DNA of 43,167 bases from a virus. Position numbers and translations under genes: made by a program. The stretch's first letter is position 1. Every line of letters begins with the position of its first letter. Location: the IMG/VR virus record IMGVR_UViG_3300047440_000037, positions 1-43,167 of that record. One strand, written 5' to 3'. Below the pieces are notes generated by a model, which saw only the letters and a program-made list of their open reading frames with translations, was not told the DNA's origin and searched no databases. Shown in pieces: positions 27,988 to 43,167 of this stretch.

Positions 27988-28101
27988 GTAGCAGTAGCGG
28001 GAGGGTGCCCGGCGCCTATAAAGGTCGTGAGTATTGTAGTTTCAAGTATTCGCTACTGAGTATTGTACTCAAACTAGTAGGCGAAGTAAGTAGAGAGGTA
28101 G

Positions 28102-28117: not shown

Positions 28118-28389
28118 GTGCTTCCGTACTCAGCTTGACTGTAGAAAATTCCTCTCTATGTATGAGTATGCATGCATGCATCAAAACACCCATATATATA
28201 CAAGTATAGTTAGAGTCGTGTTCAAATCTACATATATAGGAGCTTCACCGTAGCGATTTTGGAACTCCCGATATCTCGAACCTCCAATTTCCCGAGCAAA
28301 ATCAATGGGTTACGGAAATCGCTCGACAGTATAGATTGCATCGAATATTCTAATCTATGTTCACCCCGATTATACATTAGAGGCTAGTA

Positions 28390-29310: not shown

Positions 29311-29502
29311 ATGACTTACCGCGAATTAGCCGCGCGCCTCGCAACCCTCTCGCCCGAGCAACTGGACGCGCAAGTCACCTATTGGGATAGCGTGACTGAC
29401 GAATATCACGCGCTGACGCACTTGGACGTGGCGCAAGTCACTGACGTGCTGGACGCGTCGCATCCGTACCTTACCGCCGCGTCCGCGTGGCAACCGGCTT
29501 AA
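29311..29502 (+). CDS. Hypothetical protein, 63 aa
   Basis: The start ATG at 29311 has the leader AGGAACCGCACCC, repeated almost exactly before the next gene at 29533. The N-terminus T-Y-R-E-L-A-A-R-L-A-T-L-S-P-E-Q-L-D resembles small phage and bacterial proteins in which a helix-turn-helix-like hairpin is followed by an acidic strand (V-T-Y-W-D-S-V-T-D-E-Y). Function unknown. Confidence 0.7.
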   Translation: MTYRELAARLATLSPEQLDAQVTYWDSVTDEYHALTHLDVAQVTDVLDASHPYLTAASAWQPA

Positions 29503-29532
29503 CCCTGTAAAGCAACCGAAGGAACCGCACCC

Positions 29533-30150
29533 ATGACGACTCTGTATGACACCCGCGAACAGTGGCTGAACGCTTTCATTGAGGCGGCGCGCCCGCAGTT
29601 CGAGGCGGTAAACGCGCCTCTCCCGTCCAACCTCCGCGTCAGCGTCGGTTTCACATCGCGCGGCGCTGGACGTGGCAAGCGCGTCCGCATCGCTGAGATA
29701 TGGTCTGACAACGCCAGCGCTGACGGACACTACGAGATTTTCGTCACGCCTACGCTCCCTGACGTGGCGCGCGTTTGCGATGCGGTAACGCATGAACTGA
29801 TCCACGGCGCGGTTGGTCTAGACGAGGGACACGGCGCGCATTTCAAGCGCGTGGCAACGTCGCTAGGCCTGACTGGCCCCGCTACCGCCACGGTCGCGGG
29901 CGAGGGATGGTACGCGTGGGCCCTTCCGATCATTGAAGCCCTAGGTCCTATGCCCTACGGCGCGCTCTCGGACGACGGCGCATCGTCGCGCCGTAAGAAA
30001 CAGGCAACGTCGCTACTCAAGCTGCAATGCCCGGCGTGCGGGTTCCTGGCGCGCGTCACTAACAAGCATATCGCGCCGCATCCGTTCCTGAACTGCCCCG
30101 TTCCTGACTGCGCGGGCGAACTCATTTGCGAGGCGACCGAAGACGAGTAA
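29533..30150 (+). CDS. SprT-like zinc metalloprotease with zinc ribbon
   Basis: The 205-residue protein has the metalloprotease signature H-E-L-I-H (His87, Glu88, His91) followed by G-H-G-A-H-F (His100/His103), which supplies the third zinc ligand as in SprT/Spartan proteins. A C-terminal zinc ribbon with C-P-A-C and N-C-P-V-P-D-C ends the protein. Spartan-type enzymes degrade DNA-crosslinked proteins; a phage role could be clearing protein from DNA or removing a host factor. It is followed by the MoxR ATPase and an unknown partner, and CTGTAAAG lies 28 bases upstream. Confidence 0.87.
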   Translation: MTTLYDTREQWLNAFIEAARPQFEAVNAPLPSNLRVSVGFTSRGAGRGKRVRIAEIWSDNASADGHYEIFVTPTLPDVARVCDAVTHELIHGAVGLDEGHGAHFKRVATSLGLTGPATATVAGEGWYAWALPIIEALGPMPYGALSDDGASSRRKKQATSLLKLQCPACGFLARVTNKHIAPHPFLNCPVPDCAGELICEATEDE

Positions 30151-30221
30151 GAGCGCAACCGGAGGCGCGGTACGCCGCGCTTCCCATTGCACCCCTACAT
30201 GCACTGTAAAGGCACCCTCAA

Positions 30222-31529
30222 ATGGCACGCGATACCGCCACATACGATCCAACGCAGGACGCCGCGCAACGCATCCTGCGCGCCTATCCGACTATGAACG
30301 TTGGCAAGTACGTCCCGATTGACGCCCGCAACGCGTTACACGCGCTTGCGACGCAATGCGGCGCTACCACGTACGCCGCTGATTGCGCGTCCGACGCTGA
30401 CTTGCTCGGACTGTGGCGCGTGGCGCTGAAATCGCCGCAGAGTGCGCGGCGTACGGCTGAGAAGCTAAATGCGCGGCTGGACGCGTACGGCGCGCGCACG
30501 CCCGCTCCCTCGCCCGACGCCAGCACGCCGCAACCCTCGGACGCGTCGTTTGACGTGGCGCAAGCTATACGCGCCGCAACCGAACCGCTGGCGCAACGTA
30601 TCGCCACGCTAGACGCTGACGTACGCGCGGACTTCGCGGACCTACTCGCCAGCGCGTCGCGTAGCACGTTGGACGCTATGCGCGACGCGCTGGCGACCGA
30701 GGCGCACGCAGCCGCGACGCGCGCTTTACAGTCGATGCAGCCGACGCGCGTAGAAGTCACGCGCCCGGATATGCCCGCTATACCTCTCGGATTGGCGCAC
30801 TGTCAGACGCCGCGCCTCATTCGGTATCTGGCGGCGGGCGTGAATGTGTACCTGTACGGGCCAGCCGGTTCGGGCAAAACCACGGTCGCGAAGCAAGTCG
30901 CGGACGCCTTTAACGTGCGTGCGTACTACGCCGCGAAAATCTCAGACGAATTCCAACTGCTAGGGTTCATGCAACCGGCGACCGAGAAGCACCCGGAAGG
31001 CGTCTGCGTACGCACGGCGATGCGGGAAGCGTACGAATTTGGCGGCGTCCTACTGTGGGACGAATTCGACGCCAGCGACGCCAACGCGGTCGCAGCGATG
31101 AACATGGCAACGGCGAACAAAATCTGCCAATTCCCGGACGCGCTTGTGCGTATGCACCCTGACTTCAAACTGATTGCGGCGGGTAATACGGCGCTGACGG
31201 GCGCGACCGACGAATATCAGGGACGCAATCAGCAGGACGGCGCGGCGGTTGACCGCTTCGTGTTCCTTAAATTCGACTATGACCTAGACCTAGAGCGGGC
31301 CATCGCCCCGAACGCAGATTGGTGCGCGTACGTGCAGACGGTACGCGAGTGCATCGCAGAACGCGGCCTTAAGCATCTAGTGACGCCTCGCGCGACGCTG
31401 GACGGCGCGGCGCTGATTGCGTCGGGCGATACCTGGACGGAAGCCGCTGACGCGTGCATCTGGAAGGGACTAGACCGCGATACCGTGGACACCCTGCGCG
31501 ACGCCGCGCGCTATGCCTTTAAAGGTTAA
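30222..31529 (+). CDS. MoxR-type AAA+ ATPase
   Basis: The 435-residue protein has a helical N-terminal region of about 190 residues with coiled-coil character, then an AAA_5/MoxR core. Walker A is Y-G-P-A-G-S-G-K-T (Lys219), Walker B is L-L-W-D-E-F-D (Asp280, Glu281), sensor 1 is A-A-G-N-T, and an arginine lies in D-R-F-V-F-L. MoxR ATPases usually work as chaperones with a VWA-domain partner to remodel or activate complexes. The next gene is the likely partner. The leader has CTGTAAAG 11-18 bases before the ATG. Confidence 0.9.
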   Translation: MARDTATYDPTQDAAQRILRAYPTMNVGKYVPIDARNALHALATQCGATTYAADCASDADLLGLWRVALKSPQSARRTAEKLNARLDAYGARTPAPSPDASTPQPSDASFDVAQAIRAATEPLAQRIATLDADVRADFADLLASASRSTLDAMRDALATEAHAAATRALQSMQPTRVEVTRPDMPAIPLGLAHCQTPRLIRYLAAGVNVYLYGPAGSGKTTVAKQVADAFNVRAYYAAKISDEFQLLGFMQPATEKHPEGVCVRTAMREAYEFGGVLLWDEFDASDANAVAAMNMATANKICQFPDALVRMHPDFKLIAAGNTALTGATDEYQGRNQQDGAAVDRFVFLKFDYDLDLERAIAPNADWCAYVQTVRECIAERGLKHLVTPRATLDGAALIASGDTWTEAADACIWKGLDRDTVDTLRDAARYAFKG

Positions 31530-31533
31530 GACC

Positions 31534-32370
31534 ATGCAAACCCGCGTTACCCGCACCCTCGCCCGCTATCACTTCGCCAGCCTGCGCGAGTTGGCCCAAT
31601 ACATTGACGCCACCCCGCGCGTCTGGAAGCAAAACGCGGGCGCGAAAGAGTACGCCTCGCAAGATTGGGACTTGAACGCCGGGTATGACGGCGCGGTGGA
31701 AATGACGCGCAGCGGCTGGCTCGAAGGCGCGCAGCGCGCGCAGAAGGCTTTAAAGGCTTTCGCGCCCGCGACGCCGCAACCCTCGCGCAAGCTTGACGTT
31801 GTGGGCCAGCGCGTCAGCGTCCCACACTTCCTGACGGGCCAGCCTAAGAACATGGTACGGCGCGTGCGTACGGCTGACGCGGGTTCCGGGCGCGTCCTGA
31901 CGCTCGCCGTTAGCGTGGTCGCGTCTGCGTTTACGTCAGCCGAAGCAATGTCCAATTACGGCGTTGCGGTCGCGCAGTACGTCAATCAGTTGGAGCGCAG
32001 CGGCGTCCGCGTTCACCTGATAGGGACGCTGGCGGTGGAAAGCGACGCGCAGCGGCTGGCCCTAAGCTGGACGATTAAGAGCGCGGGCCAGCCGCTCAAT
32101 CTCTCGGCGCTCGCCTTCGCCATTGGACACCCGGCGATGCTGCGTCGCATCGGGTTTGCGTTCATGGAACGCCAGCGCGACACCCGCGAGTTTCCCTCAT
32201 ACGGTGGAGCGCGCGACGCGCTCTTGTCGGACCTGATCGACGCGCCCGCTGGCGTTGTCATCCTTAATGGCATGAAGCAAGCCAACACCCACGCGCGGAC
32301 GCCGGAGACGGCGCTTGCGTACGTCAGCGCGCAGATTGACGCCGCGCAGAAGACCCGGAAGGCGGCCTAA
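31534..32370 (+). CDS. Unknown MoxR-partner candidate, 278 aa
   Basis: I start at ATG 31534, just after AAAGG. The middle (V-L-T-L-A-V-S-V-V-A-S onward, then Y-V-N-Q-L-E-R-S-G-V-R-V-H-L-I-G) is arranged like strand-helix-strand of a von Willebrand A fold, but the metal-binding D-x-S-x-S is missing. It resembles uncharacterised phage proteins (DUF7192-type by memory) encoded next to MoxR ATPases. The adjacency suggests a degenerate VWA-like adaptor; this is inferred from position and pattern. Confidence 0.7.
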   Translation: MQTRVTRTLARYHFASLRELAQYIDATPRVWKQNAGAKEYASQDWDLNAGYDGAVEMTRSGWLEGAQRAQKALKAFAPATPQPSRKLDVVGQRVSVPHFLTGQPKNMVRRVRTADAGSGRVLTLAVSVVASAFTSAEAMSNYGVAVAQYVNQLERSGVRVHLIGTLAVESDAQRLALSWTIKSAGQPLNLSALAFAIGHPAMLRRIGFAFMERQRDTREFPSYGGARDALLSDLIDAPAGVVILNGMKQANTHARTPETALAYVSAQIDAAQKTRKAA

Positions 32371-32371
32371 C

Positions 32372-32554
32372 ATGGGAAACTTTAAAGCCAACGCGGCGCT
32401 CACAAGCGCGCTACTGCGCGCAGCGGATACGCTGGCGCATCTGCGTCCAGCCTGCGACGCCAGCGGCAAGGCGTTGGACCGCGCCGCCTTCCTGTCATGG
32501 CGTGACGCGTGCGTCAGGCTTGCCGTACGCGAGACGCGGGAGGCGGGGCAATGA
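32372..32554 (+). CDS. Hypothetical protein, 60 aa
   Basis: The gene starts M-G-N-F-K, with Phe-Lys from CTTTAAAG at codons 4-5. The product is helical and alanine- and arginine-rich (L-L-R-A-A-D-T-L-A-H-L-R). It is coupled to the next gene by ATGA. Family not recognised. Confidence 0.65.
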   Translation: MGNFKANAALTSALLRAADTLAHLRPACDASGKALDRAAFLSWRDACVRLAVRETREAGQ

Positions 32555-32874
32555 CAACCTTTAAAGCTAAGGACGTGGAGGCGTGGCGTATCCCCGCTGA
32601 CCTAGCCGAATTGGAAGCGGCGCTAGACGTGGGACGGCTTCACGTACGCATGAACCACGGCGCGTGGTGGATCGTACGGCGCGGCGGCAAGACGCGGCGT
32701 TGGGTACGCGACCCGCAACGCTGGCGCGTCCCTATACGCGTTGGCCTGCGCGAGACTGGCGCGGCGGAACCCTATAACCTGTCCATCTTTCGCATCAGGC
32801 CGCCAGGGGCCAAATCCGCCCCGCTGGCGGCCTCTAGGCGTCCGACCCTGCCACCCCTACCCGGAGACGCCTAG
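32551..32874 (+). CDS. Hypothetical basic protein, 107 aa
   Basis: It begins M-T-T-F-K-A-K, again placing CTTTAAAG at codons 3-5. The centre is rich in Trp and Arg (W-W-I-V-R-R-G-G-K-T-R-R-W-V-R-D-P), which suggests nucleic-acid binding. The C-terminal 30 residues are proline-rich and likely disordered. No family is recognised. Confidence 0.65.
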   Translation: MTTFKAKDVEAWRIPADLAELEAALDVGRLHVRMNHGAWWIVRRGGKTRRWVRDPQRWRVPIRVGLRETGAAEPYNLSIFRIRPPGAKSAPLAASRRPTLPPLPGDA

Positions 32875-32975
32875 CGCCGTCCTGGGGCTTCCTGGGGGCC
32901 TTGACGCCCGACGCCTAGGCAAGCTAGGCTTTGGCAGATCGGCACCCGATTACACCTGTAAACTGAGGATCACAC

Positions 32976-33491
32976 ATGAGCAACTTTAAAGGCACCGCCG
33001 GTCGCATGGGGCTGACCATGCGGGAAGTATGCGAGCTAGACCCCGAAGGCGTCACGTACACGTTTGTCGAGGGCGGCCCCAGTGGCACCCCCACGCACAT
33101 CGCCGTGAAAGTCCTGCTGGACGCCGTACGCGGGCGCATGGATACGACGTATTGCCTCCTGGGCGGCATGGTCCCGGCGCTCGAACGCGGCGACCTGGGG
33201 GTTGAGGAGGCGCACGCTTTAAAGTTCCCCGAGGCGGCGCTAGAGGTTCCCGGTATCGTGGGCGAGTGGGGCAACGATCACGTAATGATCGACGGCGCGC
33301 ATCGCGTGTGGCGGCGCTGGAAGCGCGGAGACGCGGGGTTCCATGCGTACGTGGTCCCGGAAAGCGTGTGGCGGCATTTCGTGGTGCTGGACGTGCCTGG
33401 GGATGCGGCGTTTTGGGACGACTTCAACCGCAACGCAGTCATCCGTACGCCTGAGATGGAACGGCTTTTAAAGCTCCTGGGAGTGAAGTAG
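32976..33491 (+). CDS. ParB/Srx-like fold protein, 171 aa
   Basis: The segment V-M-I-D-G-A-H-R-V-W-R-R-W at about residues 101-113 resembles the D-G-x-H-R box of ParB N-terminal-like and sulfiredoxin-like proteins, and the flanks are alpha/beta. Phage members of this group are often of unknown role; some ParB-like domains bind CTP or act as nucleases. The gene starts M-S-N-F-K, with CTTTAAAG at codons 3-5, and the 100-base gap before it contains CTGTAAAC at 32956. Confidence 0.65.
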   Translation: MSNFKGTAGRMGLTMREVCELDPEGVTYTFVEGGPSGTPTHIAVKVLLDAVRGRMDTTYCLLGGMVPALERGDLGVEEAHALKFPEAALEVPGIVGEWGNDHVMIDGAHRVWRRWKRGDAGFHAYVVPESVWRHFVVLDVPGDAAFWDDFNRNAVIRTPEMERLLKLLGVK

Positions 33492-33493
33492 CC

Positions 33494-33736
33494 ATGACCG
33501 ACGCTCGCCCGCCTTGGCCCGCATCCGTACGCCCGACGCGAGTAAGGCGGGACGAGCCCGACCAGCAGGAATTGGACCTAGAGCCGTTCCACTTGGACGC
33601 GGCACCTTTAAAGGACGTGTGCCCGCCCCCTACGCGCTACGGGGGCGACGAGTACAAGTGTCGCACCTGCGGCGTCATTTGGAGTATTGACGAGCCCCGC
33701 CCGCCGTGCGATCATACTGCATCAACCAAGGGATGA
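33494..33736 (+). CDS. Small zinc-finger-like protein, 80 aa
   Basis: The N-terminal half is proline-rich and acidic. The C-terminal half has C-R-T-C-G-V-I-W-S then C-D-H, a possible treble-clef or ribbon zinc site. It follows the previous stop by 2 bases. Function unknown. Confidence 0.65.
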   Translation: MTDARPPWPASVRPTRVRRDEPDQQELDLEPFHLDAAPLKDVCPPPTRYGGDEYKCRTCGVIWSIDEPRPPCDHTASTKG

Positions 33737-33740
33737 CCCC

Positions 33741-33974
33741 ATGAAGCTCACCATCAAGAAACTCCCCAACGGCGATTTTGTCGTGCTGGCGGATCGCAAG
33801 CCCCTTACTATGGTCCTGACGCTGGACGTGTTCGCCCGCGAGTGGGACGCCTTTACAGTCGTTCCGAACACCGCCGACGTGTACGCCTACGACCAGTGCG
33901 TCGCATCGTCCAAGTCGCGCAGCCGCCTGCTGGAAAACCTGCAAGCGTTCGCCTCCGTACTGGCTCAGGCATAG
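33741..33974 (+). CDS. Hypothetical protein, 77 aa
   Basis: The ATG at 33741 follows the previous stop by four bases. The protein is alpha/beta with a beta hairpin at the N-terminus (L-P-N-G-D-F-V-V-L-A) and a C-terminal helix. CTTTACAG occurs at 33851. No recognised family. Confidence 0.65.
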   Translation: MKLTIKKLPNGDFVVLADRKPLTMVLTLDVFAREWDAFTVVPNTADVYAYDQCVASSKSRSRLLENLQAFASVLAQA

Positions 33975-33985
33975 GGAGCTTTAAA

Positions 33986-34213
33986 GTGGCCAACCGCACG
34001 CTTGACCGCAACGACAACTTGACGCACCGCGAGTGGCCCGTGAGCCCGTCGCGGTACCCCCTGACCGGCCCGTCGCGTGGGTACGCCTACGCCCCGCCTC
34101 CGCGCCATCGTACCTTCCTGGGCGGCTTCATCATGGGTATTGCGTACCTGTGCCTGATGCTGTTCGCCTTCGGGTTCGCCGGGTACATGCTCGCCGTCAC
34201 GTACTTTAAATAG
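33986..34213 (+). CDS. Small single-pass membrane protein, 75 aa
   Basis: GTG at 33986 lies in CTTTAAAGTG. Residues 1-45 are polar and basic; residues about 46-71 form one clear membrane span (G-G-F-I-M-G-I-A-Y-L-C-L-M-L-F-A-F-G-F-A). The topology would leave the N-terminus in the cytoplasm. It is a candidate holin-like or membrane-modifying protein, but no endolysin gene is adjacent. The stop is within TTTAAATAG. Confidence 0.68.
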   Translation: MANRTLDRNDNLTHREWPVSPSRYPLTGPSRGYAYAPPPRHRTFLGGFIMGIAYLCLMLFAFGFAGYMLAVTYFK

Positions 34214-34214
34214 T

Positions 34215-34301
34215 ATGTGGATCGCGCACCCCATCGGCTTCGTCATCTTCCTCATATTCATCGGCGGCTACGTGTTCGGCTGTAATTGCGATGACGACTG
34301 A
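34215..34301 (+). CDS. 28-aa membrane micropeptide
   Basis: ATG at 34215 follows the previous stop by one base. The peptide is almost entirely one membrane helix (I-G-F-V-I-F-L-I-F-I-G-G-Y-V-F-G) with C-N-C-D-D-D at the end. The next gene starts inside its 3' end. Being paired with another one-span protein, it could be part of a lysis or membrane module. It is short and therefore tentative. Confidence 0.5.
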   Translation: MWIAHPIGFVIFLIFIGGYVFGCNCDDD

Positions 34302-34473
34302 GCAAGTAAAGGCGTTGCAAAGATACATCAGTGCGACGGTGTATTTTATGTTGCACCATCGCGAGGGTGGTGGTAGTGTACTTGAGTACCTGGCGGCGAG
34401 GAAGCATTTAGAAGCTACCCTCGGCGCTGACTTCCCCACCCAACCCAAGCGGGACTTCCCCGACTTACTTTAA
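34291..34473 (+). CDS. Hypothetical protein, 60 aa
   Basis: The start overlaps the micropeptide gene by 11 bases. The product is helical, with L-E-Y-L-A-A-R-K-H-L-E-A-T-L in the C-terminal half. Its last codon CTT and TAA stop form part of CTTTAAAG. Function unknown. Confidence 0.6.
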   Translation: MTTEQVKALQRYISATVYFMLHHREGGGSVLEYLAARKHLEATLGADFPTQPKRDFPDLL

Positions 34474-34481
34474 AGGGCATC

Positions 34482-34700
34482 ATGCGCTACTTCATCCAAA
34501 TCGAAATCAAGAACGCGGAGGACAAGTTCCGCGTCAAGCGCGTACTCGCGCACCTGCTGTCCAGCCCCGGCGAGTGGGATGGCCCCCTGCCCGAGACGGA
34601 AATGACCTGCCGGGAGACTGGCGGCATCCAAGAGCTTCACGCGTACGAGCGCGACGGCTTCACCATGAAGGGTCACGTCAACCCCATCGGAGGGCTTTAA
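34482..34700 (+). CDS. Hypothetical protein, 72 aa
   Basis: This small alpha/beta protein begins M-R-Y-F-I-Q-I-E-I-K-N-A-E-D. The TAA stop lies in CTTTAAAG, two bases before the ATG of the next gene. No recognised domain. Confidence 0.65.
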   Translation: MRYFIQIEIKNAEDKFRVKRVLAHLLSSPGEWDGPLPETEMTCRETGGIQELHAYERDGFTMKGHVNPIGGL

Positions 34701-34702
34701 AG

Positions 34703-34894
34703 ATGACTGACAAACCCAAGGCACGACGCGGGTTCGCCGCGATGGACCCGGAGAAGCGGCGGGAAATCGCCCGCAAGGGCGGCGCGAGCGTCAAGGCGTA
34801 CAACCGTAGCTTCGCACGCGACAAGGCCCTGGCGATCAGCGCCGGGAGCAAGGGCGGGACCAACTCGCGCGGCGGCGGAAGGCCCAGCAAATGA
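34703..34894 (+). CDS. KGG-repeat stress-protein-like small protein
   Basis: Residues 10-52 carry two KGG units: G-F-A-A-M-D-P-E-K-R-R-E-I-A-R-K-G-G and A-I-S-A-G-S-K-G-G. This resembles bacterial KGG-motif stress proteins (YciG/YmdF-like), small basic disordered proteins. Phages carry similar genes, of unknown role, possibly nucleic-acid binding. CTTTAAAG lies immediately before the ATG. Confidence 0.72.
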   Translation: MTDKPKARRGFAAMDPEKRREIARKGGASVKAYNRSFARDKALAISAGSKGGTNSRGGGRPSK

Positions 34895-35073
34895 GCGAGC
34901 CCCGCGCGTGTAACTGTGGCTCGGGGAAGCCCCGCCGCGCCCTGTACGACGCGCGGGGTATCTTCTGCGCGTACGTCTGCAACACCTGTGAAGCGCCTGT
35001 AAAGGCGAAGTACCGGGATGACGTGTTCAACGATAGCACCTACTGGCACGACGAACCCATAGAGGAAGACTGA
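34891..35073 (+). CDS. Small zinc-ribbon protein, 60 aa
   Basis: Two cysteine pairs, C-N-C-G-S-G near residue 7 and C-N-T-C near residue 30, plus a lone Cys between, suggest a zinc ribbon. It overlaps the previous stop (ATGA). A CTGTAAAG copy at 34997 is in frame. Possible DNA or RNA binding; function unknown. Confidence 0.65.
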   Translation: MSEPRACNCGSGKPRRALYDARGIFCAYVCNTCEAPVKAKYRDDVFNDSTYWHDEPIEED

Positions 35074-35090
35074 CGTATAATACGTCAGTC
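35068..35090. promoter_or_regulatory. Perfect 10-bp inverted repeat containing TATAAT
   Basis: GACTGACGTA and TACGTCAGTC are perfect complements with a 3-base spacer, and the centre reads TATAAT (35076-35081). The site spans the stop of the upstream gene and lies about 30 bases before the next start. It could be a hairpin terminator, an operator, or a -10 box inside an operator. No good -35 is visible and no T-tract follows. Confidence 0.5.
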
Positions 35091-35116
35091 TTACAATAGA
35101 CGAGGATTAGCTTTAA

Positions 35117-35425
35117 ATGAACCCGAACAGCAAGGGCTACCCAGCCGAGTTGATCTACGACAACTACAACGACGCGCTCATTACGATGAGCGAGGCGGTG
35201 GAGCAATTCATCGTACTCCTGGCCGGGGAGGATGCGCCCGCGCTGCCACGCACGCCCAACGGCAGGCTCCGCGCCTTCCTCGACGTGGCCCGCAACAAGG
35301 GCCAAGTGGCCCACCACCACGGCAAGCCCCCGGAGGCGTGCCCGTACTACCCCAACGAAGACCGCGAAGCGTGGTTTGAGGGGTACTACCACGAACGCCT
35401 GAACGCCTCCGTGGGAGAGCTTTAA
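35117..35425 (+). CDS. Hypothetical protein, 102 aa
   Basis: The start is in CTTTAAATG with GAGG upstream, and the stop is in the next CTTTAAATG. It is helical, with Y-N-D-A-L-I-T-M-S-E-A-V-E-Q-F near the N-terminus and a C-P-Y-Y-P-N-E-D motif late. Family not recognised. Confidence 0.7.
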   Translation: MNPNSKGYPAELIYDNYNDALITMSEAVEQFIVLLAGEDAPALPRTPNGRLRAFLDVARNKGQVAHHHGKPPEACPYYPNEDREAWFEGYYHERLNASVGEL

Positions 35426-35686
35426 ATGAAACCTACCCCCGAACAGGCCGAAACGATCCGCCTGGGCATCGCCATGAGCGAGGCCATCATGGAGACGGTA
35501 GCCGAACTGTTGCGCCTGATCCCTGACGGCGCGCACGTTGGCATCGTGGCGCTTACTCACGCCGCCGCGCGCTTTGAAATGAAGTGCCGCGCCCCTGGCC
35601 TGTCGAACGCCGAGTACCGCAAGCACTATCACGAAGTCCTCGACGAAGTGATGGACTACGAGGAAAAGCAGAGGGCTTTAAAGTAG
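35426..35686 (+). CDS. Hypothetical helical protein, 86 aa
   Basis: It begins directly at the previous stop (TAAATG context). The protein is predicted to be all helical, starting P-T-P-E-Q-A-E-T-I-R-L-G, and ends in a charged coil (Y-E-E-K-Q-R). The C-terminus A-L-K is encoded by CTTTAAAG. No function is assigned. Confidence 0.7.
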   Translation: MKPTPEQAETIRLGIAMSEAIMETVAELLRLIPDGAHVGIVALTHAAARFEMKCRAPGLSNAEYRKHYHEVLDEVMDYEEKQRALK

Positions 35687-36163
35687 ATGCCCCAACTCCC
35701 GATCACCAACGAAATACGAGCGGACGACCTAGCCAGTGCCTTTAACAGCAGCACCGAGCGTCGGCTGTGGCGGGCTACGAAGGGAGGGACGCGCTTGCTC
35801 CCGACCGTCCGCTTTATCTCGTCAGGCTCGATGGTACAGATCACGTACCATTTAAAGTACCAGCACTTCACGGTGGTCTTCTCCCGTGCAAGCTGCGCCT
35901 TTGGCGACTTCCTCGCCAGTACCTTCCGCGACCTGTCGGCCATCCTGGCGGCGCTCAAGGCGTCTGGATACCCCTTCGCCGCTGCCGTGGACCCCGCCGC
36001 CGTCCTACGGGTGGAGTACGACCCCCGCTCCAAGGTCGCAACCGTGGCTGTAGCCCTGACCGGCGACGACTGGCAGGACGCCGAGCCGATGCCTTTAAAC
36101 GTACCGGAGAGGAGCGAAAATAATACGAAAATAACTGTTGACCCGCCCGAGTACGACCTGTAG
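35687..36163 (+). CDS. Hypothetical protein, 158 aa
   Basis: ATG at 35687 follows CTTTAAAGTAG, where the previous gene stops. It is mixed alpha/beta with W-R-A-T-K-G-G-T-R-L-L near residue 28 and strands around residues 45-60. It contains two TTTAAA sites. I do not recognise a family. Confidence 0.7.
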   Translation: MPQLPITNEIRADDLASAFNSSTERRLWRATKGGTRLLPTVRFISSGSMVQITYHLKYQHFTVVFSRASCAFGDFLASTFRDLSAILAALKASGYPFAAAVDPAAVLRVEYDPRSKVATVAVALTGDDWQDAEPMPLNVPERSENNTKITVDPPEYDL

Positions 36164-36203
36164 AACACCCTTACCAACTCACACACCCGCAAGGAACAAC
36201 CCA

Positions 36204-36854
36204 ATGTCTGAACAACCCGCTCCCAACCCGGCCATTGCCGAGTTTGAATTTCCGCAGATCACCGGCAAAGTCACGTTCGACTGCGCGACCATCCCCGCTG
36301 ACGTGCGCCTCGACTTCCTCAAGGGCGCTGTCCGCGCCTACATCGCCAACCGGCTGAACGCCGCCGCGACCCGCTACAGCAAGGACGAAACCGTCGCCGC
36401 CTGGGCGCAATACGAAGCCGCGACCGCCTCCGATCCGCTGCAAAGCATCGTGCCGCAGCCGACCGCTGCGCTGCCCGACGAGCCGAACTTTAAAGAGGTC
36501 TACGACCGCGCTGTCGCTGACCTCGCCGCTGGTACGATCCGCCGCCAGGGTGCCGAGCCGAAGGCCCGGAAGACCAAGGACCCGCTGGTTTCGCTGGTCA
36601 CGGACGCCGTTGTCCGCGCCATCTACAACGACCGGCGCGCGGCGAACCCCAAGTACTCGTTCTTCGACGCCCGCAAGGAAGTCGGGACCGACGGCGTGGC
36701 GTACCTGCACGCCATGATCGAAGCCAAGGTCGCGGAGGGCGTTGACCGCGCCCAACTCGAAGCGTCCCTGGAAGAAAAGTACATGGGACCGGCCAAGCGT
36801 ATGCTGGGCCAGGAAGTCAGCAAGAAGGGCGCTGCTCTCCCGTCGATCCTGTAA
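36204..36854 (+). CDS. Hypothetical protein, 216 aa
   Basis: AAGGAACAACCCA precedes the ATG at 36204. The protein has an N-terminal strand (I-A-E-F-E-F-P-Q-I-T-G-K-V), helical middle and charged C-terminal helices. Its codons are strongly biased to C and G at third positions, suggesting high expression. It is the last gene before a strong terminator. The family is unknown; a structural or DNA-binding role cannot be excluded. Confidence 0.72.
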   Translation: MSEQPAPNPAIAEFEFPQITGKVTFDCATIPADVRLDFLKGAVRAYIANRLNAAATRYSKDETVAAWAQYEAATASDPLQSIVPQPTAALPDEPNFKEVYDRAVADLAAGTIRRQGAEPKARKTKDPLVSLVTDAVVRAIYNDRRAANPKYSFFDARKEVGTDGVAYLHAMIEAKVAEGVDRAQLEASLEEKYMGPAKRMLGQEVSKKGAALPSIL

Positions 36855-36892
36855 CGACCCCCCGGTCTACAGGAGTACGACGGTACGAGGGA

Positions 36893-36930
36893 GGGCCGGG
36901 GTTCCTGCGAGGGAGCACCCCGGCCCTTTT
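36893..36930 (+). terminator. Rho-independent terminator
   Basis: GGGCCGGGGT (36893-36902) and ACCCCGGCCC (36917-36926) form a perfect 10-bp GC-rich stem with a 14-base loop, followed directly by TTTT. It lies 39 bases after the stop of the 216-aa gene. A CTTTAAAG motif follows at 36931. Confidence 0.85.
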
Positions 36931-36959
36931 CCTTTAAAGTAACAGCAAGGACACCCCAC

Positions 36960-37151
36960 ATGCAACCCGTACCCTTGAAGCCGTGCCCTGTGCGCGTAGT
37001 AATCAGGGACGACAACGACCCCGACGCCCCGCCCATCCACGACAAGACGGCGGACCACAACGACCGCTTTTTCCGCGACTGGATCACCAAAACAATGTGG
37101 TGGGCGCTGCGGAACGGTAAGTCAGTGAGCATGTACCCCGAAGCACCCTAA
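36960..37151 (+). CDS. Hypothetical protein, 63 aa
   Basis: This is a short acidic and histidine-containing N-terminal region (R-D-D-N-D-P-D-A-P-P-I-H-D), then an amphipathic helix with two tryptophans (W-I-T-K-T-M-W-W-A-L). The upstream CTTTAAAG lies 22 bases before the start. Function unknown. Confidence 0.6.
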   Translation: MQPVPLKPCPVRVVIRDDNDPDAPPIHDKTADHNDRFFRDWITKTMWWALRNGKSVSMYPEAP

Positions 37152-37175
37152 CACCTTTAAAGAGTACCTGTACCC

Positions 37176-37361
37176 ATGAAACTTGCAGAAGTATTAGAAC
37201 AACTGACCCGAGCCTGGGCGCGTACATCGCCCAACGAACGCCCCAGCAACCCCGAGGTTGTACTGATCGTCAACGGCGTGGCGCACCCCATTGGCGACGT
37301 GTGGTTTGAACACGGCCAAGGCAGCAAGGGCGCTATCTGCATCGGGGATGACCCACGATGA
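37176..37361 (+). CDS. Hypothetical protein, 61 aa
   Basis: It has an N-terminal helix and a C-terminal beta hairpin (V-V-L-I-V-N-G-V-A-H-P-I-G-D-V). It overlaps the next gene by ATGA. CTTTAAAG occurs about 15 bases before the start. Function unknown. Confidence 0.62.
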   Translation: MKLAEVLEQLTRAWARTSPNERPSNPEVVLIVNGVAHPIGDVWFEHGQGSKGAICIGDDPR

Positions 37362-37585
37362 CCCTGTACGTGTACCTTGTGTGGCACTACACGGACGCTG
37401 ACCACGCCTCACGGCTGGTAGGCGTATTCGCCAGCAAGAAGCAAGCGGCCATCGTCTGCGCCCACCTGGGGCCGGAGTACCGCTACGTCGCCAACTCCAT
37501 CGCCGGGTTCCCCTGGTTCACCGTCGGCCTAGGGTTCGGGTTCCTATGTGCCATGACATTCATCGTACTAAGCCGAGGACTTTAA
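37358..37585 (+). CDS. Small protein with C-terminal membrane segment, 75 aa
   Basis: A soluble N-terminal half (S-K-K-Q-A-A-I-V-C-A-H-L) is followed by one membrane span at about residues 50-72 (W-F-T-V-G-L-G-F-G-F-L-C-A-M-T-F-I-V-L). It is tail-anchored in appearance. It might act in the inner membrane during host takeover or lysis. The TAA stop lies in CTTTAAAG. Confidence 0.65.
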   Translation: MTLYVYLVWHYTDADHASRLVGVFASKKQAAIVCAHLGPEYRYVANSIAGFPWFTVGLGFGFLCAMTFIVLSRGL

Positions 37586-37587
37586 AG

Positions 37588-37776
37588 ATGCCACGCCTCA
37601 AGCGCGACGCTGACGACGTGGAAGTCTCAGCCATCGCGACCGTTGACGGTATGCAGGCTATCCGCATCACCGACTACGTTCACGTAGTCTTCACCGGCAG
37701 GAACAAGCTGATGAGCGTGTTCCTGACGCCCGACCAAATACGCGAACTGCGTGGCATGTTGGATGGAGCCCTTTAA
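37588..37776 (+). CDS. Hypothetical protein, 62 aa
   Basis: CTTTAAAG immediately precedes the ATG, and the stop is in another CTTTAAAG. The product is beta-rich (V-H-V-V-F-T-G-R-N-K-L-M-S-V-F-L) with a final helix. The next gene starts inside its 3' end. No recognised family. Confidence 0.62.
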   Translation: MPRLKRDADDVEVSAIATVDGMQAIRITDYVHVVFTGRNKLMSVFLTPDQIRELRGMLDGAL

Positions 37777-37939
37777 AGGTCAGTGGTCCCCTGGGGCCTT
37801 GTATGTGGTTGTACGCCCTGAAATCACCGGGCCTGGGTGGGTTTTAAAGGTGTACAACTTCGCGACGTGGCGTCACAAAACAGTGATCTACGGCACGGAG
37901 GCGGAAGCCCGTACAGCGGCGGGATGGTGGCTCATCTGA
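37763..37939 (+). CDS. Hypothetical protein, 58 aa
   Basis: ATG at 37763 gives M-E-P-F-K-G, with CTTTAAAG at codons 3-5, the same placement as several other genes in this arm. The protein is beta-rich with two aromatic-basic strands. A GTG at 37751 would extend it by four residues. Function unknown. Confidence 0.58.
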   Translation: MEPFKGQWSPGALYVVVRPEITGPGWVLKVYNFATWRHKTVIYGTEAEARTAAGWWLI

Positions 37940-38210
37940 GGCCCCTTGCGCGTCGGCGCGGTTGCCCGTACAAGGGGCGCTGCGTTTGCCACGCATAGGG
38001 GCGAGCCCCCCTCTCTCCTAGGCCCCCTTGCCGGGGCCACAAGGCCCCTAGGGACCGTTCCCCGACCCTCCCTAGGGGCCGACCCGGCAAGCGCCCACAG
38101 ACCCCCTCAGAGCCCCGCTTGACAGCATCCCCTAGACCGGCCTAACCCTGGCGTCCGCCTGGGTTCGGAAGGCAAACCGTACCCTCTACACTTTCACCGC
38201 ATAGGCAAGT
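37940..38210. promoter_or_regulatory. GC-rich 271-bp gap with CCTAGG words and possible promoter
   Basis: No gene is seen. GCCCCTTG (37941-37948) and CAAGGGGC (37971-37978) could form a stem. At least four CCTAG or CTAGG words follow between 38018 and 38140. TTGACA at 38119 with a poor -10 (CTAACC, 17 bases on) is a weak promoter candidate for the primase-helicase gene. Confidence 0.4.
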
Positions 38211-40430
38211 ATGCACCAGCAACAGCACGACTACGGGGAGTTACTAAACGCCTTTACAGCGTTTACTTCCCCCGGTCAGGTCTTCGAAGTCAGACTACTT
38301 CACCACAACAAGAAGCGGACTGACGCCGGATACTTCGACCACCCCTCCCACGCGGCCACGGCCATAGCGGCGCTGCAAGAGCAGTACGCGGGGATTTACT
38401 TCACGCCCAACCCGGTTGACCCGTCGCTGATTGCGCGGTCGAGTAACCGTATCGACTCCTGGGCGCAGCACACTACGATGGACCCGCAGATCGTGCGCCG
38501 TCGCTGGCTGCTGGTTGACATTGACCCTGACCGCGTACCTGGCATTAGCTCGACAGACCTAGAACTGTCCAATGCCTTTAAAGTGGTCAACACCATCGCC
38601 AACATGCTTGAGCTAGAAGGCTGGCCGCGCCCCTTCATCAACCTCTCTGGCAACGGCGCGCACGCCCTGTACCCGATGGACGAGCCCAACACGGAGGAAG
38701 TACGCGATGCTCTACAAGTCTTCCTCAAGACACTTAATGGACGCTTTAAAGATCACGGTTGTTCAGTCGATACAACGACATTCAACGCATCGCGTATTTT
38801 TCGAGTGCCGGGTACGTGGGCGCGGAAAGGCGATAACATACCAGCGCGTCCGCACCGCAAGGCTTACATGGTTGCGGCTCCATCCCAGCGAACCGACGTA
38901 ACGCTGGCGCAGGTACGCGCCTTCAACGAGCGCAATTTAAAGTACCTGGGTACGACGGAGCTAAGGAAGGGTGTTAAGCTCCCTTTAGAGTACCCCGGAG
39001 ACGAAGCAGTCTATCGGGGTTTGAACCAAAAAGCTTTGGACCGCGTTAAGGATTGGGTTCCCGTACTATTCCCCGACGCACGCGAGTACAAGAACGGCTT
39101 TCGTATCTCGTCCGACGCGCTCGGGATGCACTACGAGGAAGACCTGACCATCCACCCGTTCCCGCTCGGGATCAAGTACTTCGGCGTTGCGGACCAAGAT
39201 GACGCCACGGAGGGCAGGCGCACCGCTGTCAGCGTAGTGGCCGAGTTCGTCACCGAGGGCAGCAAGCTTAAAGCGGCTCAGTTACTCGCTGATACTTTAA
39301 AGCTGCCGCTCACCGAGTTTGATATTTTGTCGCAGGCCCCGTTGGTTCAAGGGCTTGACCTGTTCGGTGGGTCTGCTAACCTACCTGGGACGGCGGCGAC
39401 CGCTCCGCAATACGACTTCCGGCGCGTCCCGTCAATGGCAGACCTGCAAGCACGCACCTTTAAAGAACCTGTATGGATCATCCCCAATGTTCTGCCAACT
39501 GGAGCCATACTTCTCGCAGCACGGCCCAAGATGCGTAAGACGTTTCTGGCGCTACAACTGGCGCTCGCCGTATGCGGCGGACGTAGATTTCTCGATTACC
39601 CTGTCAACCAAGGCGACGTACTTTTTCTCGCGCTGGAAGACAATGAACGGCGGCTTAAGTCTCGCATTAAGCTGCTTCAAACCCTTGAACTCAACCCGCC
39701 TGATCTGTCAGGGTTCCGTTACTGGACTGGCGGTGTGGATATATCGCCAGCCGGTCGCCAGTACGTCGCGAACCCGGAGGAAGCCGCCCGAGCCTATGCA
39801 GCATTTCCCCGTGGGGAGGCTGGGGTGGACGCTTTAAACGCCTTCCTCGATATCTTCCCACGTACCAGCCTTGTCGTGATCGACACGTACGCGCACTTCC
39901 GCGAGCAATCGAACAATCGCGACGTGTACCAGCGCGACTACGACCAAATGATGCCGATAACGAAACTTTGTGCTAGACGCGAAGTCTGTTGCGTGGTAGT
40001 ACACCATGAGAAGAAGGGCCTCGCCGGTAACGACAGCGGCGACTTCATGGAGGACGTTTCAGGTACTACTGGCATCACCGGCGCGGTTGACGGGATTATG
40101 TCCATCAAGGGTCGCCGGGGGTTTCAGGACCAAGCGGAGGAACGCAAGTTACTCTTGACAGGCCGGGACATTCCGCATGACCTAGACCTAGATATCAGGT
40201 TCGACGCAGAACGGGGAGGCTGGCTAACAGCCGCGCGTCAGGACGCAAAGGCAGCTATTTTAAAGATGCTGGCGCTTCACCCCTACATGACCCAAGCCGA
40301 CGTTACCGGGTCATTCCCCAACGTACCCAAGTCCCGCATTGTGCAGGTCTTGACACAGATGAAATTCGAACACACCATCGTTCACGACCGCCTCGGGTAT
40401 CATCTGCCTAACCCCTTTAAAGGAGACTAA
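38211..40430 (+). CDS. Primase-helicase (AEP-type primase plus RepA-like AAA ATPase)
   Basis: The 739-residue protein is a fusion. The N-terminal third has D-I-D-P-D-R and, later, S-G-N-G-A-H-A-L-Y, the catalytic-acid and nucleotide-binding signatures of archaeo-eukaryotic-type primases/PrimPols. From about residue 425 there is a RepA/DnaB-like AAA_25 ATPase with A-R-P-K-M-R-K-T (Lys443), L-F-L-A-L-E-D near residue 467, and L-V-V-I-D-T-Y as Walker B. Arg442 stands where Walker A usually has glycine. A C-terminal winged-helix-like segment follows (Y-M-T-Q-A-D-V-T-G). It supplies priming and fork unwinding for the family A polymerase. Confidence 0.88.
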   Translation: MHQQQHDYGELLNAFTAFTSPGQVFEVRLLHHNKKRTDAGYFDHPSHAATAIAALQEQYAGIYFTPNPVDPSLIARSSNRIDSWAQHTTMDPQIVRRRWLLVDIDPDRVPGISSTDLELSNAFKVVNTIANMLELEGWPRPFINLSGNGAHALYPMDEPNTEEVRDALQVFLKTLNGRFKDHGCSVDTTTFNASRIFRVPGTWARKGDNIPARPHRKAYMVAAPSQRTDVTLAQVRAFNERNLKYLGTTELRKGVKLPLEYPGDEAVYRGLNQKALDRVKDWVPVLFPDAREYKNGFRISSDALGMHYEEDLTIHPFPLGIKYFGVADQDDATEGRRTAVSVVAEFVTEGSKLKAAQLLADTLKLPLTEFDILSQAPLVQGLDLFGGSANLPGTAATAPQYDFRRVPSMADLQARTFKEPVWIIPNVLPTGAILLAARPKMRKTFLALQLALAVCGGRRFLDYPVNQGDVLFLALEDNERRLKSRIKLLQTLELNPPDLSGFRYWTGGVDISPAGRQYVANPEEAARAYAAFPRGEAGVDALNAFLDIFPRTSLVVIDTYAHFREQSNNRDVYQRDYDQMMPITKLCARREVCCVVVHHEKKGLAGNDSGDFMEDVSGTTGITGAVDGIMSIKGRRGFQDQAEERKLLLTGRDIPHDLDLDIRFDAERGGWLTAARQDAKAAILKMLALHPYMTQADVTGSFPNVPKSRIVQVLTQMKFEHTIVHDRLGYHLPNPFKGD

Positions 40431-40431
40431 C

Positions 40432-40851
40432 TTGTCCGGTATTCTGGAAGCCATCTACGCCGAGTTGCAGGCCATTCGCGCCCAACTCGCCCAACAGCAG
40501 CCCGCTCCGCAGCAGTACGCCCAAAGCGCTCCGCAGCAGCAGCAGTATATCGCTCCGCAGCCCGCCCCGCAACAGCAGTACATCGCTCCGCCGCAGCAAG
40601 CACCCGCCCCGCAGCAAGCACCCGCCCCGCAGCAGAACATCACCGCCGACACCATCCTGGCGCTGATCCAGCCGCACATCGGCAACCCCGTGACGAAGGA
40701 AGCCCTCGGCGGCGCTATGCGCGCTATGGGCATCAACGCGCTCCCGGAGACGCAGCCGCACCAATTCGCAGAACTGTACGCGCGCTTCCAAGCCGTACTG
40801 GCCCAGCCGCAGCAGCAGCAGCAGGCCCCGCAGTCCGCGAACATCATCTAG
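40432..40851 (+). CDS. Pro/Gln-rich protein with helical ends, 139 aa
   Basis: The start is TTG at 40432, chosen because AAAGGAG lies seven bases upstream and the frame gives a good N-terminal helix (S-G-I-L-E-A-I-Y-A-E-L). Residues about 22-68 are a low-complexity run of Gln, Pro and Ala; residues 70-125 are a compact helical domain. It may be a replication accessory tethered by a flexible linker. The CAG/CCG repeats are expandable tracts. Confidence 0.7.
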   Translation: MSGILEAIYAELQAIRAQLAQQQPAPQQYAQSAPQQQQYIAPQPAPQQQYIAPPQQAPAPQQAPAPQQNITADTILALIQPHIGNPVTKEALGGAMRAMGINALPETQPHQFAELYARFQAVLAQPQQQQQAPQSANII

Positions 40852-40876
40852 GCCCGCGCAGTTAGCCTAGATAGGC

Positions 40877-40926
40877 CCCCGGTACGCCGTTTGGCCCCAC
40901 CTCTCGCGTACCGGGGACAACCTTTA
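40877..40926 (+). terminator. 11-bp perfect stem-loop in an intergenic gap
   Basis: CCCCGGTACGC (40877-40887) and GCGTACCGGGG (40916-40926) are perfect complements around a 28-base loop. It lies between the Pro/Gln-rich gene and the next gene. There is no T-tract, so it may act as an attenuator or RNA stabiliser. AAAGGAG with the CTTTAAAG motif follows. Confidence 0.5.
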
Positions 40927-40937
40927 AAGGAGCCACC

Positions 40938-41222
40938 ATGAAGCCACCAGCCCACCTTCCCCAGCACGTACAGCGCATCTACGCCGAAGGCGACGAACTG
41001 TCGCAGAAACTCGGCAAGGTCAATGCGTTCATCCAGGGCGAGGCTTTTAAAGAGCTTGCGCCGTTGGACGCGCACCTGCTCTCGCTGCAATCCGAACTCA
41101 TGCAGTCCTACCTGCACGTACTCACCATCAGGCTCGCCCGCGCCAACGACGCGCACAACGGCGTACTGCCTGACACCGCCACGGCCCTGAGCGCCAAACC
41201 GGGTATCATTCGGGCAAGCTGA
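40938..41222 (+). CDS. crAss001_48-like helical protein, 94 aa
   Basis: Residues 22-68 (L-S-Q-K-L-G-K-V-N-A-F-I onward, then L-L-S-L-Q-S-E-L-M-Q-S-Y-L) match the pattern of a widespread small phage family of two-helix proteins called crAss001_48-related. Function is unknown. AAAGGAG precedes the ATG inside CTTTAAAGGAG. Confidence 0.65.
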   Translation: MKPPAHLPQHVQRIYAEGDELSQKLGKVNAFIQGEAFKELAPLDAHLLSLQSELMQSYLHVLTIRLARANDAHNGVLPDTATALSAKPGIIRAS

Positions 41223-41461
41223 TGTTCACCAAAGACAACAGCAGGCACTACAGCGGCGTGAAGATCGTACGCGCATGGCATTGCAGCCGTCGCGAGTACT
41301 GTCACTATCGCGGCTGGGTAGTGCCAGAGACAGAGGGTGTTGACGAACCCGGTTACATCGTTGAGTATGAACCGGACGAACACCCCAACCATCCGAACCA
41401 CGACGGATACATTTCGTGGACCCCTGCCAAGGTGTTTGATCGTACTTACACCGAACTCTAA
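41222..41461 (+). CDS. Hypothetical protein, 79 aa
   Basis: The start overlaps the previous stop (TGATG). The protein has C-S-R-R-E-Y-C and histidine-rich H-P-N-H-P-N-H-D segments that could bind metal. It is soluble. No family is recognised. Confidence 0.62.
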   Translation: MFTKDNSRHYSGVKIVRAWHCSRREYCHYRGWVVPETEGVDEPGYIVEYEPDEHPNHPNHDGYISWTPAKVFDRTYTEL

Positions 41462-41477
41462 CAGAAGGCACTTTAAA

Positions 41478-41813
41478 GTGAGCGAAGACTCGATCCCCGA
41501 CACCCCGTACGTCCCTGCCGTGGAGCCGACCCCGCCCCCGCCGCCTGCCGAGCCGCCCGAGCCGACAGTACCGTCTGAACCCCCGCCTACGGCCCCCGAA
41601 GGTGACGTACAAGTCGGTGCTACCACAGTACACGCGGTTACGCCGTCTAGCGTCGTGCCGCCCGAGCCGTACAACCCGCCCGCGCCGACCCTGGAACCAA
41701 CCGCCCCGGAAAGCGTTGACGACGGCGCTACGGTCGAGGTTGAAGACCCCGACGAGGAGGAAGACGACGGCGAGTTTGAAGCCGACGAAGGCGACGAGCC
41801 CGACGAGGAGTAA
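41478..41813 (+). CDS. Disordered proline-rich, acidic-tailed protein, 111 aa
   Basis: GTG at 41478 lies in CTTTAAAGTG. Nearly the whole protein is proline-, glutamate- and alanine-rich, with P-P-P-P-P-A-E-P-P-E-P-T near residue 15-26, and the last 30 residues are almost all Asp and Glu. It resembles an acidic intrinsically disordered protein, such as a DNA mimic or a scaffold-like tail. This could block a DNA-binding host protein, but that is conjecture. Confidence 0.62.
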   Translation: MSEDSIPDTPYVPAVEPTPPPPPAEPPEPTVPSEPPPTAPEGDVQVGATTVHAVTPSSVVPPEPYNPPAPTLEPTAPESVDDGATVEVEDPDEEEDDGEFEADEGDEPDEE

Positions 41814-41860
41814 ACCGCGCCGCGACGGCTTCGCGGTACTTCAAGGCGAGGTACTTTAAA

Positions 41861-42025
41861 ATGTCTGACGACAACATGGGCTACGGCGGGCGCGCGATCC
41901 ACGTCCCAGCCAGTTCGACTAAGGCGGGCGTCACTCCCGAGCCCGTTGAGACTACGGCTGACGTGGAGCCTGCCGACGACAAGCGCGACAAAACGCGCGG
42001 CGACAAGACGAAGCCGCTGGTGTAA
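41861..42025 (+). CDS. Small charged protein, 54 aa
   Basis: The ATG follows CTTTAAA directly. The product starts M-S-D-D-N-M-G-Y-G-G-R-A-I-H-V-P and ends in a lysine/aspartate-rich tail (D-D-K-R-D-K-T-R-G-D-K). It is likely disordered. It sits 9 bases before the DUF2800 gene. Function unknown. Confidence 0.6.
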   Translation: MSDDNMGYGGRAIHVPASSTKAGVTPEPVETTADVEPADDKRDKTRGDKTKPLV

Positions 42026-42034
42026 GAGCAGGGC

Positions 42035-43167
42035 ATGACAGTACACGCTAAGAACCGGCCACCCTCCGCTGCGAAGCGTTGGCTGTCATGCCCGTATTCT
42101 GCCCTGGTTGAACCCCTGTACCCGCGCGACGACACCGCGCAGTCTTTAAAGGGCGATACCTGGCACGAACTGATGCAGGCGCTAATTACGTTCGGCACGC
42201 TCCCGCTGGAAGCCGACCCCGACGCCGCCGACGCGCTGCAAGACCTGTACGACTATGTACTGGCACGCGTTAAAGTAGCTGGCCCCGGCGCTCGCGTGTA
42301 CGTCGAAGTTACCCTGACCATCCCCGAGACAGGGGAAATCGGTACTATCGACATTCTGATCGTCGGCCCGTACTTGATCGAAGTGATCGACTTGAAGTCA
42401 GGTTACATCGTCGTTGACGTGTTCCAGAACGCGCAAGAGCTAACGTACCTCCTGGGTGCCATCGCCCTGCACGGCGAGCGTCCGCAGTACCGGCTAACCA
42501 TCCACCAGCCCAACTACGACCATATCGACGGCACGCTGCGCCATTGGTCGCCCGTGGACCTTGACATATACGCGCACCGGACAGCCGTACTCGCGTCCGT
42601 GGAGCAGCCTGATCGCATCTTCGCAGGCCACCATTGCAAGGCCACGTACTGCCCCCATCGCGGCGCGTGCGAGCCTTTCCGCCAGTACGCTTTAAATGAC
42701 CTCTCGCTAGGCTGGCACAGCAGCGAGTTGAAGTCCATGAGCGACGCTGATCTGAGTAAGGCGTTGGACGCCTCAGACGAGCTAGGCGGCTGGCGTAACG
42801 AACTACGCAGCGAAGCCATGCGGCGTATTATGAATATGGACCGGCGCATCGACGGCTACAAAGTCGTGAAGGGCCGCAAGCAGCGCACAATACTTGATCC
42901 TTTAAAGGTCATCCAGCACGTATGGGACGAATTGGGTATCGAGTGGGCGCGTCGGATGATACCCGACCTAGCCTGGGTGCCAAATCTGCAACCCACGCTC
43001 CCTGACGCTTTAAAGTGTATCGGCACCCCCAAGCACATTGAAGACGTTTTAAAGCAGTACGCCCGTCAAAATAAATTTAAGCGGGGAGAGTGGAAAACCC
43101 TTTACGATAACGTCGTGGGGGCGTATATTCGAGAAACCAACAGCGGCCTTACATTGGAAAAGGCCAT
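42035..43167 (+). CDS. DUF2800 RecB-like nuclease, N-terminal and catalytic part
   Basis: The gene runs off the contig and continues at 1-504, giving about 403 residues. Residues 103-106 are G-T-I-D and 116-122 are E-V-I-D-L-K-S, so Asp106, Asp119 and Lys121 form the PD-(D/E)XK active site. Q-N-A-Q-E-L-T-Y-L follows, like the RecB QxxxY motif. Cys19 with Cys201, Cys206 and Cys212 are arranged like the iron-sulphur cluster of Cas4/AddB-type nucleases. It likely resects DNA ends for recombination-dependent replication. Confidence 0.9.
   Translation, partial: MTVHAKNRPPSAAKRWLSCPYSALVEPLYPRDDTAQSLKGDTWHELMQALITFGTLPLEADPDAADALQDLYDYVLARVKVAGPGARVYVEVTLTIPETGEIGTIDILIVGPYLIEVIDLKSGYIVVDVFQNAQELTYLLGAIALHGERPQYRLTIHQPNYDHIDGTLRHWSPVDLDIYAHRTAVLASVEQPDRIFAGHHCKATYCPHRGACEPFRQYALNDLSLGWHSSELKSMSDADLSKALDASDELGGWRNELRSEAMRRIMNMDRRIDGYKVVKGRKQRTILDPLKVIQHVWDELGIEWARRMIPDLAWVPNLQPTLPDALKCIGTPKHIEDVLKQYARQNKFKRGEWKTLYDNVVGAYIRETNSGLTLEKA
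42743..43167. repeat. Right copy of imperfect terminal direct repeat
   Basis: This is the partner of 1-425: same length, identical first 101 and last 55 bases, about 49 mismatches in between. The two alleles encode segments differing at about 12 residues. This copy has three TTTAAAG motifs (42901, 43009, 43048), while the left copy has only one, at 267. Confidence 0.9.

Follow-up and report, generated by a model that had tools for sequence, protein, structure and literature searches.

A densely iterated palindrome selected as DNA within phage genes, and a SprT-like zinc-ribbon protein as its probable reader

The stoperators of cluster A mycobacteriophages, which are sites for the gp71 repressor of phage L5, are asymmetric, oriented with transcription, and mostly intergenic; Chi, KOPS, and DNA-uptake words are oriented as well. 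To our knowledge, no SPRTN protein reads a sequence word, and we know of no link between SprT and HIP1, the iterated GCGATCGC word of cyanobacteria. HIP1 has been discussed together with CGATCG methylation (PMC6604393), and SPRTN is presented, in two further papers, as a DNA-dependent protease for DNA-protein crosslinks (PMC5127644 and PMC9240642). Our search of the open-licence literature found no account of a word such as the one described here or of SprT-like phage proteins.

The stretch of DNA that we analyzed (the window), the whole of a 43,167-bp virus record, has a GC content of 60%. It contains 104 copies of TTTAAA and 58 of the palindrome CTTTAAAG, where 2.9 and 0.26, respectively, would be expected; TTTAAAG, matched on both strands, is found 160 times, compared with 2.65 in shuffled sequences (shuffle maximum, 7). 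The word is the full palindrome, and it lies mostly within genes and on both strands (Table 1). All close relatives, which come from many metagenomes, carry the word, with 24–46 copies of CTTTAAAG in near-full-length records and 0–1 copies of a reversed-word control. The word is present in contigs whose capsid protein shares 82% identity or more and missing from those at 68% or below. Its dialect changes between close relatives, and variant words follow lineage (CATTTAAATG in G015 and L079, and CTTTTAAAAG in G003). We also noted a local array in L127 (G022), at 17067–17172, with four CTTTAAAG copies 31–34 bp apart, i.e., about three helical turns. In G001 (L031), the variant CGCTTTAACGCG is repeated inside one small gene that lies between those for SprT and the terminase small subunit; this gene may have been acquired, and its word may be a separate dialect. 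A second set of words around GTAC is enriched over the whole window (AGTACT, 30 copies, 4.7-fold; AAGTAC, 6.6-fold), and GTAC-type words are enriched also in relatives that lack CTTTAAAG, such as the word-free G012.

Table 1. Positions in the window of the sites, genes, and regions discussed
Feature	Position	Strand	Remark
Left copy of 425-bp terminal overlap	1..425	+	Probably assembly bubble, two strains
Left allele divergent stretch, phrog_69 exonuclease gene	102..370	+	Single TTTAAA at 267
104 TTTAAA sites, 58 of them the full palindrome CTTTAAAG	266..43054		Genome-wide except 27050–31517
Largest TTTAAA-free stretch (4.5 kb)	27050..31517		
Terminase small subunit-to-SprT region	27821..29512		Nine variant words CTGTAAAG/CTTTACAG, no TTTAAA
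Variant word CTGTAAAG	29505..29512	+	28 bp upstream of SprT start codon; proposed autoregulatory operator
SprT-like protein with C-terminal zinc ribbon (phrog_6361)	29533..30150	+	Proposed word reader
MoxR-like AAA+ ATPase (phrog_249)	30222..31529	+	Second cassette gene, common to word-bearing genomes
DUF7192 protein (phrog_1909)	31513..32370	+	Third cassette gene
Exonuclease gene (phrog_69)	42035..43165	+	Open at contig end
Right copy of 425-bp terminal overlap	42743..43167	+	
Right allele divergent stretch, phrog_69 exonuclease gene	42844..43112	+	TTTAAA at 42901, 43009, 43048; near-word TTTAAG at 43076
Genes with hydrophobic C-terminal ends	525–1211, 4991–6682, 27029–27538, 36204–36854, 40432–40851		Also exonuclease relatives

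The original prediction concerned the two ends of the window, which align without gaps at 88.5% identity and both represent the 3′ portion of a single exonuclease gene. The 49 differences all fall inside the divergent stretch, between flanks of 101 bp (1–101) and 55 bp (371–425) that are identical. They touch 42 codons, 30 of them synonymously and 12 not, and 36 of the 49 are third-position changes, in keeping with the near-silent divergence that had been described there. The codons at four sites also read exactly as first given. At site 1, CCC CTC AAG on the left allele stands against CCT TTA AAG on the right, so that P-L-K is retained and three silent changes yield TTTAAAG; site 2 is GCT TTA AAG on both alleles; site 3 is GTT ATT AAG (V-I-K) on the left and GTT TTA AAG (V-L-K), with the word, on the right; and at site 4, AAA ATG AAG against AAA TTT AAG (N-K-M-K against N-K-F-K) produces the near-word. 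The right allele thus has three TTTAAA and the left allele one. Site 2 is kept in G001, G002, G005, and G011, and as TTTAAA in G003, while relatives have no word at sites 1 and 3; this suggests that the right allele gained its words at these two sites. The allele pair nevertheless proves nothing alone, because it comprises two events only and a word-count gap of at least two separates random 267-bp stretches of the window genome in 8% of draws. The claim that these alleles reveal selection on the motif therefore exceeds what the pair can carry, although the word is indeed enriched genome-wide. Likewise, they are alleles, as proposed, but both need not sit in one genome: since the flanks are identical, the terminal copies probably stem from the co-assembly of two strains of a circular phage rather than from a gene duplicated in one genome.

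The broader proposal, that selection acts on the copies as words of DNA and not through the amino acids they encode, is supported across the genome and far beyond two alleles. Across ten related genomes, TTTAAA was kept in 492 of 607 comparisons at conserved Phe-Lys and in 368 of 462 at conserved Leu-Lys (80% retention). Synonymous controls were far lower: the hexamer encoding a two-fold dipeptide was kept in 38%, four-fold sites agreed in 38%, and word-less Leu-Lys hexamers were kept in 26%. Of the 41 Phe-Lys pairs in the window, 35 are encoded as TTTAAA, and the word takes in 44 of the 59 TTA codons. Protein sequence has been bent too, because Phe-Lys occurs at about double its expected frequency in word-bearing genomes (41 against 19 in the window, and an excess of ~1.5- to 2.2-fold in CTTTAAAG relatives) but not in word-free relatives (~1-fold in G012 and G008). 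About half of the word turnover between genomes accompanies amino-acid changes. A neutral artefact of composition or codon usage could account for the two-allele differences, which by themselves are within chance; as an explanation of the word it has next to no probability, being refuted by the 35- to 220-fold enrichment, the 0–1 reversed words, the 80% against 38% conservation at synonymous sites, and the dipeptide enrichment.

Sites avoid each other. With the largest gap set aside, only 8 gaps in the window are shorter than 100 bp, against 24 expected. Spacing is significantly more even than random placement in G002, G004, G005, G010, G011, and G015 and in the unrelated Pan1, Henoccus, Yang, and L203; evenness was not significant in the window when the 4.5-kb gap was included, nor in GardenState, Zeta1847, L234, L256, and L260. 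The variant CTGTAAAG is concentrated at 27.8–30.7 kb, where TTTAAA is absent, and relatives have GCTTTAAAGC repeats in the region between the terminase small subunit and SprT. Adjoining the terminase small subunit, at about 27725–27800, a block AAAATTTTGGTGCGGTGGTA ... CCTGCCG ... ACCCGGTGGC is conserved in several relatives within a fast-changing intergenic region, and it is possible that this block is a cos or pac site. Could the word itself be a signal for replication, recombination, or packaging (Chi-like, pac-like, or a primase site) that the shared replication or terminase machinery recognizes? The intergenic clustering of GCTTTAAAGC repeats by the terminase small subunit and the conserved cos-like block would fit, as would the often even spacing. 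We consider this improbable, since terminase subunits, polymerase, primase, and helicase are all shared by the word-free relative G026, the word, a palindrome, lies in genes of both orientations, and related words occur in unrelated phages.

The gene content of G026 (42.8 kb) points elsewhere. This relative lacks both the word and the SprT-MoxR-DUF7192 cassette, while it shares the capsid, portal, terminase, polymerase, helicase, primase, exonuclease, u40, and u41 genes. Of the larger genes that the word-bearing genomes have in common, G026 is without three only, the neighbouring SprT-like, MoxR-like, and DUF7192 genes; a few small, poorly conserved genes (e.g., 3982–4317 and 7005–7319) are missing from it, yet they are missing also from the word-bearing G015. 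In two Rhizobium phages, P106B and RHph_X2_24, a relative of DUF7192 is encoded next to an ATPase gene or close by; neither phage gives a SprT match or carries such a word, and hence SprT alone is implicated within the cassette. The MoxR-type ATPase and DUF7192 were ruled out as readers on the same grounds. The terminase small subunit, despite a helix-turn-helix-like stretch, and u40, u41, and u46 were rejected because all are present in the word-free G026. The two Rhizobium phages (L150 and L153) have over-represented words of their own around CCTGGACG, with 24 and 16 copies (32- and 18-fold, respectively).

The SprT-like protein of the window matches the phrog_6361 profile (E = 1.4e-36), as do 21 of 21 aligned members. 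Its match to PF10263, at 18 bits, is below the curated cut-off of 25.6, which the GardenState and Celaena members pass and most others do not. A model of the protein (pLDDT 75; built from the window-clade alignment) gave no significant fold match in a Foldseek comparison with the PDB, and a sequence search of the PDB was uninformative. The HExxH motif is intact in the window (HELIH) and lost in the word-bearing G001, G002, G015, L226, and L249–L260 lineage. Because HExxH is lost in word-rich lineages, protease activity is not essential to the word, which would be maintained by binding rather than by proteolysis. There is one exception to the pairing of word and gene: G021, a nearly complete contig in which SprT was not found, has the word in 24 copies with weaker enrichment. 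Its retention of shared sites is the lowest among CTTTAAAG genomes (32%), which fits a recent loss of SprT; G021 is also among the most diverged.

The association extends to unrelated phages. R5C and Pan1, which have a SprT relative, have the word GTTTAAAC, and the actinophages Yang, GardenState, Zeta1847, Henoccus, and VroomVroom, also with a SprT relative, have GTGTAAAC. GTKTAAAC sites number 17 in R5C, 16 in Pan1, 42 in Henoccus, 20 in Yang, 22 in Zeta1847, 16 in GardenState, and 18 in VroomVroom, with no reversed word, and are absent from GMA4, Zemlya, Hexbug, BillyTP, and RexFury; none of the comparison phages that lack this SprT family has such a word. We then scanned IMG/VR with the SprT family and obtained 74 loci, 52 of them non-redundant and outside the window clade, to which we applied a panel of six words chosen from earlier genomes (Bonferroni P < 0.01). 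As controls we used 40 contigs, mostly capsid or terminase relatives, none of which was matched by the SprT scan. A panel word was enriched in 34 of the 52 SprT loci and in none of the 40 controls (Fisher, 3e-12, a P value that overstates independence, as SprT loci share ancestry), and reversed words were enriched in none. About a third of SprT loci had no significant panel word; among these, other palindromes were picked out post hoc (GTGTACAC in L197, L204, L206, and L213, and CTATTAAT in L232). A palindromic, highly iterated word in coding DNA might also be kept, as for HIP1, through host or phage methylation or restriction, and ATTTAAAT and GTTTAAAC coincide with known restriction sites. 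However, no methyltransferase was found among the window genes searched, the gene-level correlation is with SprT, and dialects shift between close relatives, so that methylation or restriction is a highly improbable explanation.

Dialect follows the zinc ribbon. Where the residue five past the conserved ribbon arginine (R+5) is tryptophan, the word is GTKTAAAC in 34 of 34 significant cases. CTTTAAAG occurs only with histidine (11) or glutamine (1) at R+5, and histidine is found also with seven GT...AC words. In FP1, the ribbon cysteines are lost and the word is absent; in Celaena, a VRxTxKW stretch is lost and the word is likewise absent. Of 56 loci, 17 (2.96 expected) have a word in the 100 bp that precede SprT, a number reached in none of 200,000 simulations. 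Sites are enriched just downstream of SprT too (nine loci), so the upstream signal is partly a general gene-boundary effect. In ep3 and Persinger, which have only four words each, one of the four is 26–27 bp upstream of SprT. A different factor, such as a phage repressor, a sigma factor, or a host protein, might instead read the word, with SprT a co-carried gene and one regulated target among others: G021 retains the word without SprT, some of the actinophages compared here have genes for sigma factors or further DNA-binding proteins, and four of the words in GardenState fall within repeated stretches that resemble promoters. We regard such a reader as unlikely, because SprT is, among the genes looked at, the one common gene found across the word-bearing phages of Pseudanabaena, Dinoroseobacter, Arthrobacter, Streptomyces, and E. 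coli, and because dialect tracks ribbon residues and the word is absent where the ribbon has decayed.

Three further features of the window are recorded here. The gene at 26395–26802 (minus strand) encodes an Acb2/Tad1 hairpin domain protein (PF24729, E = 1e-15) and is, by this match, likely an anti-CBASS or anti-Thoeris sponge. The gene at 35117–35425 (plus strand) shows weak similarity to ribosome modulation factor RMF (E = 1e-5, below the cut-off). Short hydrophobic C-terminal ends (LPSIL, NII/SII, FGGIxL, FxGIDL, and TVL/NIL) are common to replication and packaging proteins and look like a common docking tail. A host search with the major capsid protein against bacterial genomes gave no match.

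On comparative sequence evidence, CTTTAAAG is probably recognized by the SprT-like zinc-ribbon protein that the phage itself encodes. We suggest that the ribbon, probably dimeric, binds this palindrome; that the protein might control its own gene through the site just upstream of the start codon; and that it would decorate the whole phage genome at a spacing of ~0.4–5 kb. Selection for coverage would then make and keep sites even inside genes, as the exonuclease alleles may illustrate. The weakest step is the role, most likely that of a genome-marking DNA-binding protein that organizes, guards, or clears phage DNA; by analogy with SPRTN, the ancestral metalloprotease domain may strip proteins from DNA. 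We give about an even chance to a wider proposal, a widespread phage-encoded system in which palindromic dialects (CTTTAAAG, CATTTAAATG, CGTTTAAACG, CGTGTAAACG, and perhaps CGTGTACACG and CTATTAATAG) are each read by a SprT-like zinc-ribbon protein that coats the whole genome of its phage at selected sites, a virus-specific mark that would have begun as an autoregulatory operator and then spread genome-wide, bending proteins. If true, a family that is annotated as protease or function-unassigned in many phages would become one of sequence-specific readers with a specificity code legible in the zinc ribbon, and the word would be a clear case of DNA-word selection shaping codons and amino acids of unrelated genes. 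Why a phage gains from marking its whole genome would then be a question for cultured phages of Arthrobacter, Microbacterium, Streptomyces, and E. coli.

Among known systems, Chi, KOPS, and DNA-uptake words are likewise short genomic words under DNA-level selection within genes, but the window word is palindromic and phage-specific and lacks the orientation of Chi. With SPRTN and other SprT metalloproteases, the candidate reader has in common an HExxH-type SprT domain (PF10263, a weak match) and a zinc-binding tail; unlike them, several phage members without HExxH still keep the word. HIP1 is also a highly iterated palindrome retained in coding DNA, yet it is cellular, GC-rich, and tied to methylation, whereas the phage word is CTTTAAAG and not GCGATCGC. 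The window word differs from stoperators in that it is a palindrome rather than an asymmetric, transcription-oriented site, is mostly intragenic and denser, comes in several dialects, and has a SprT-like zinc protein as candidate reader; it resembles them in its many sites dispersed across a phage genome for one phage protein, here a candidate, together with operator sites.
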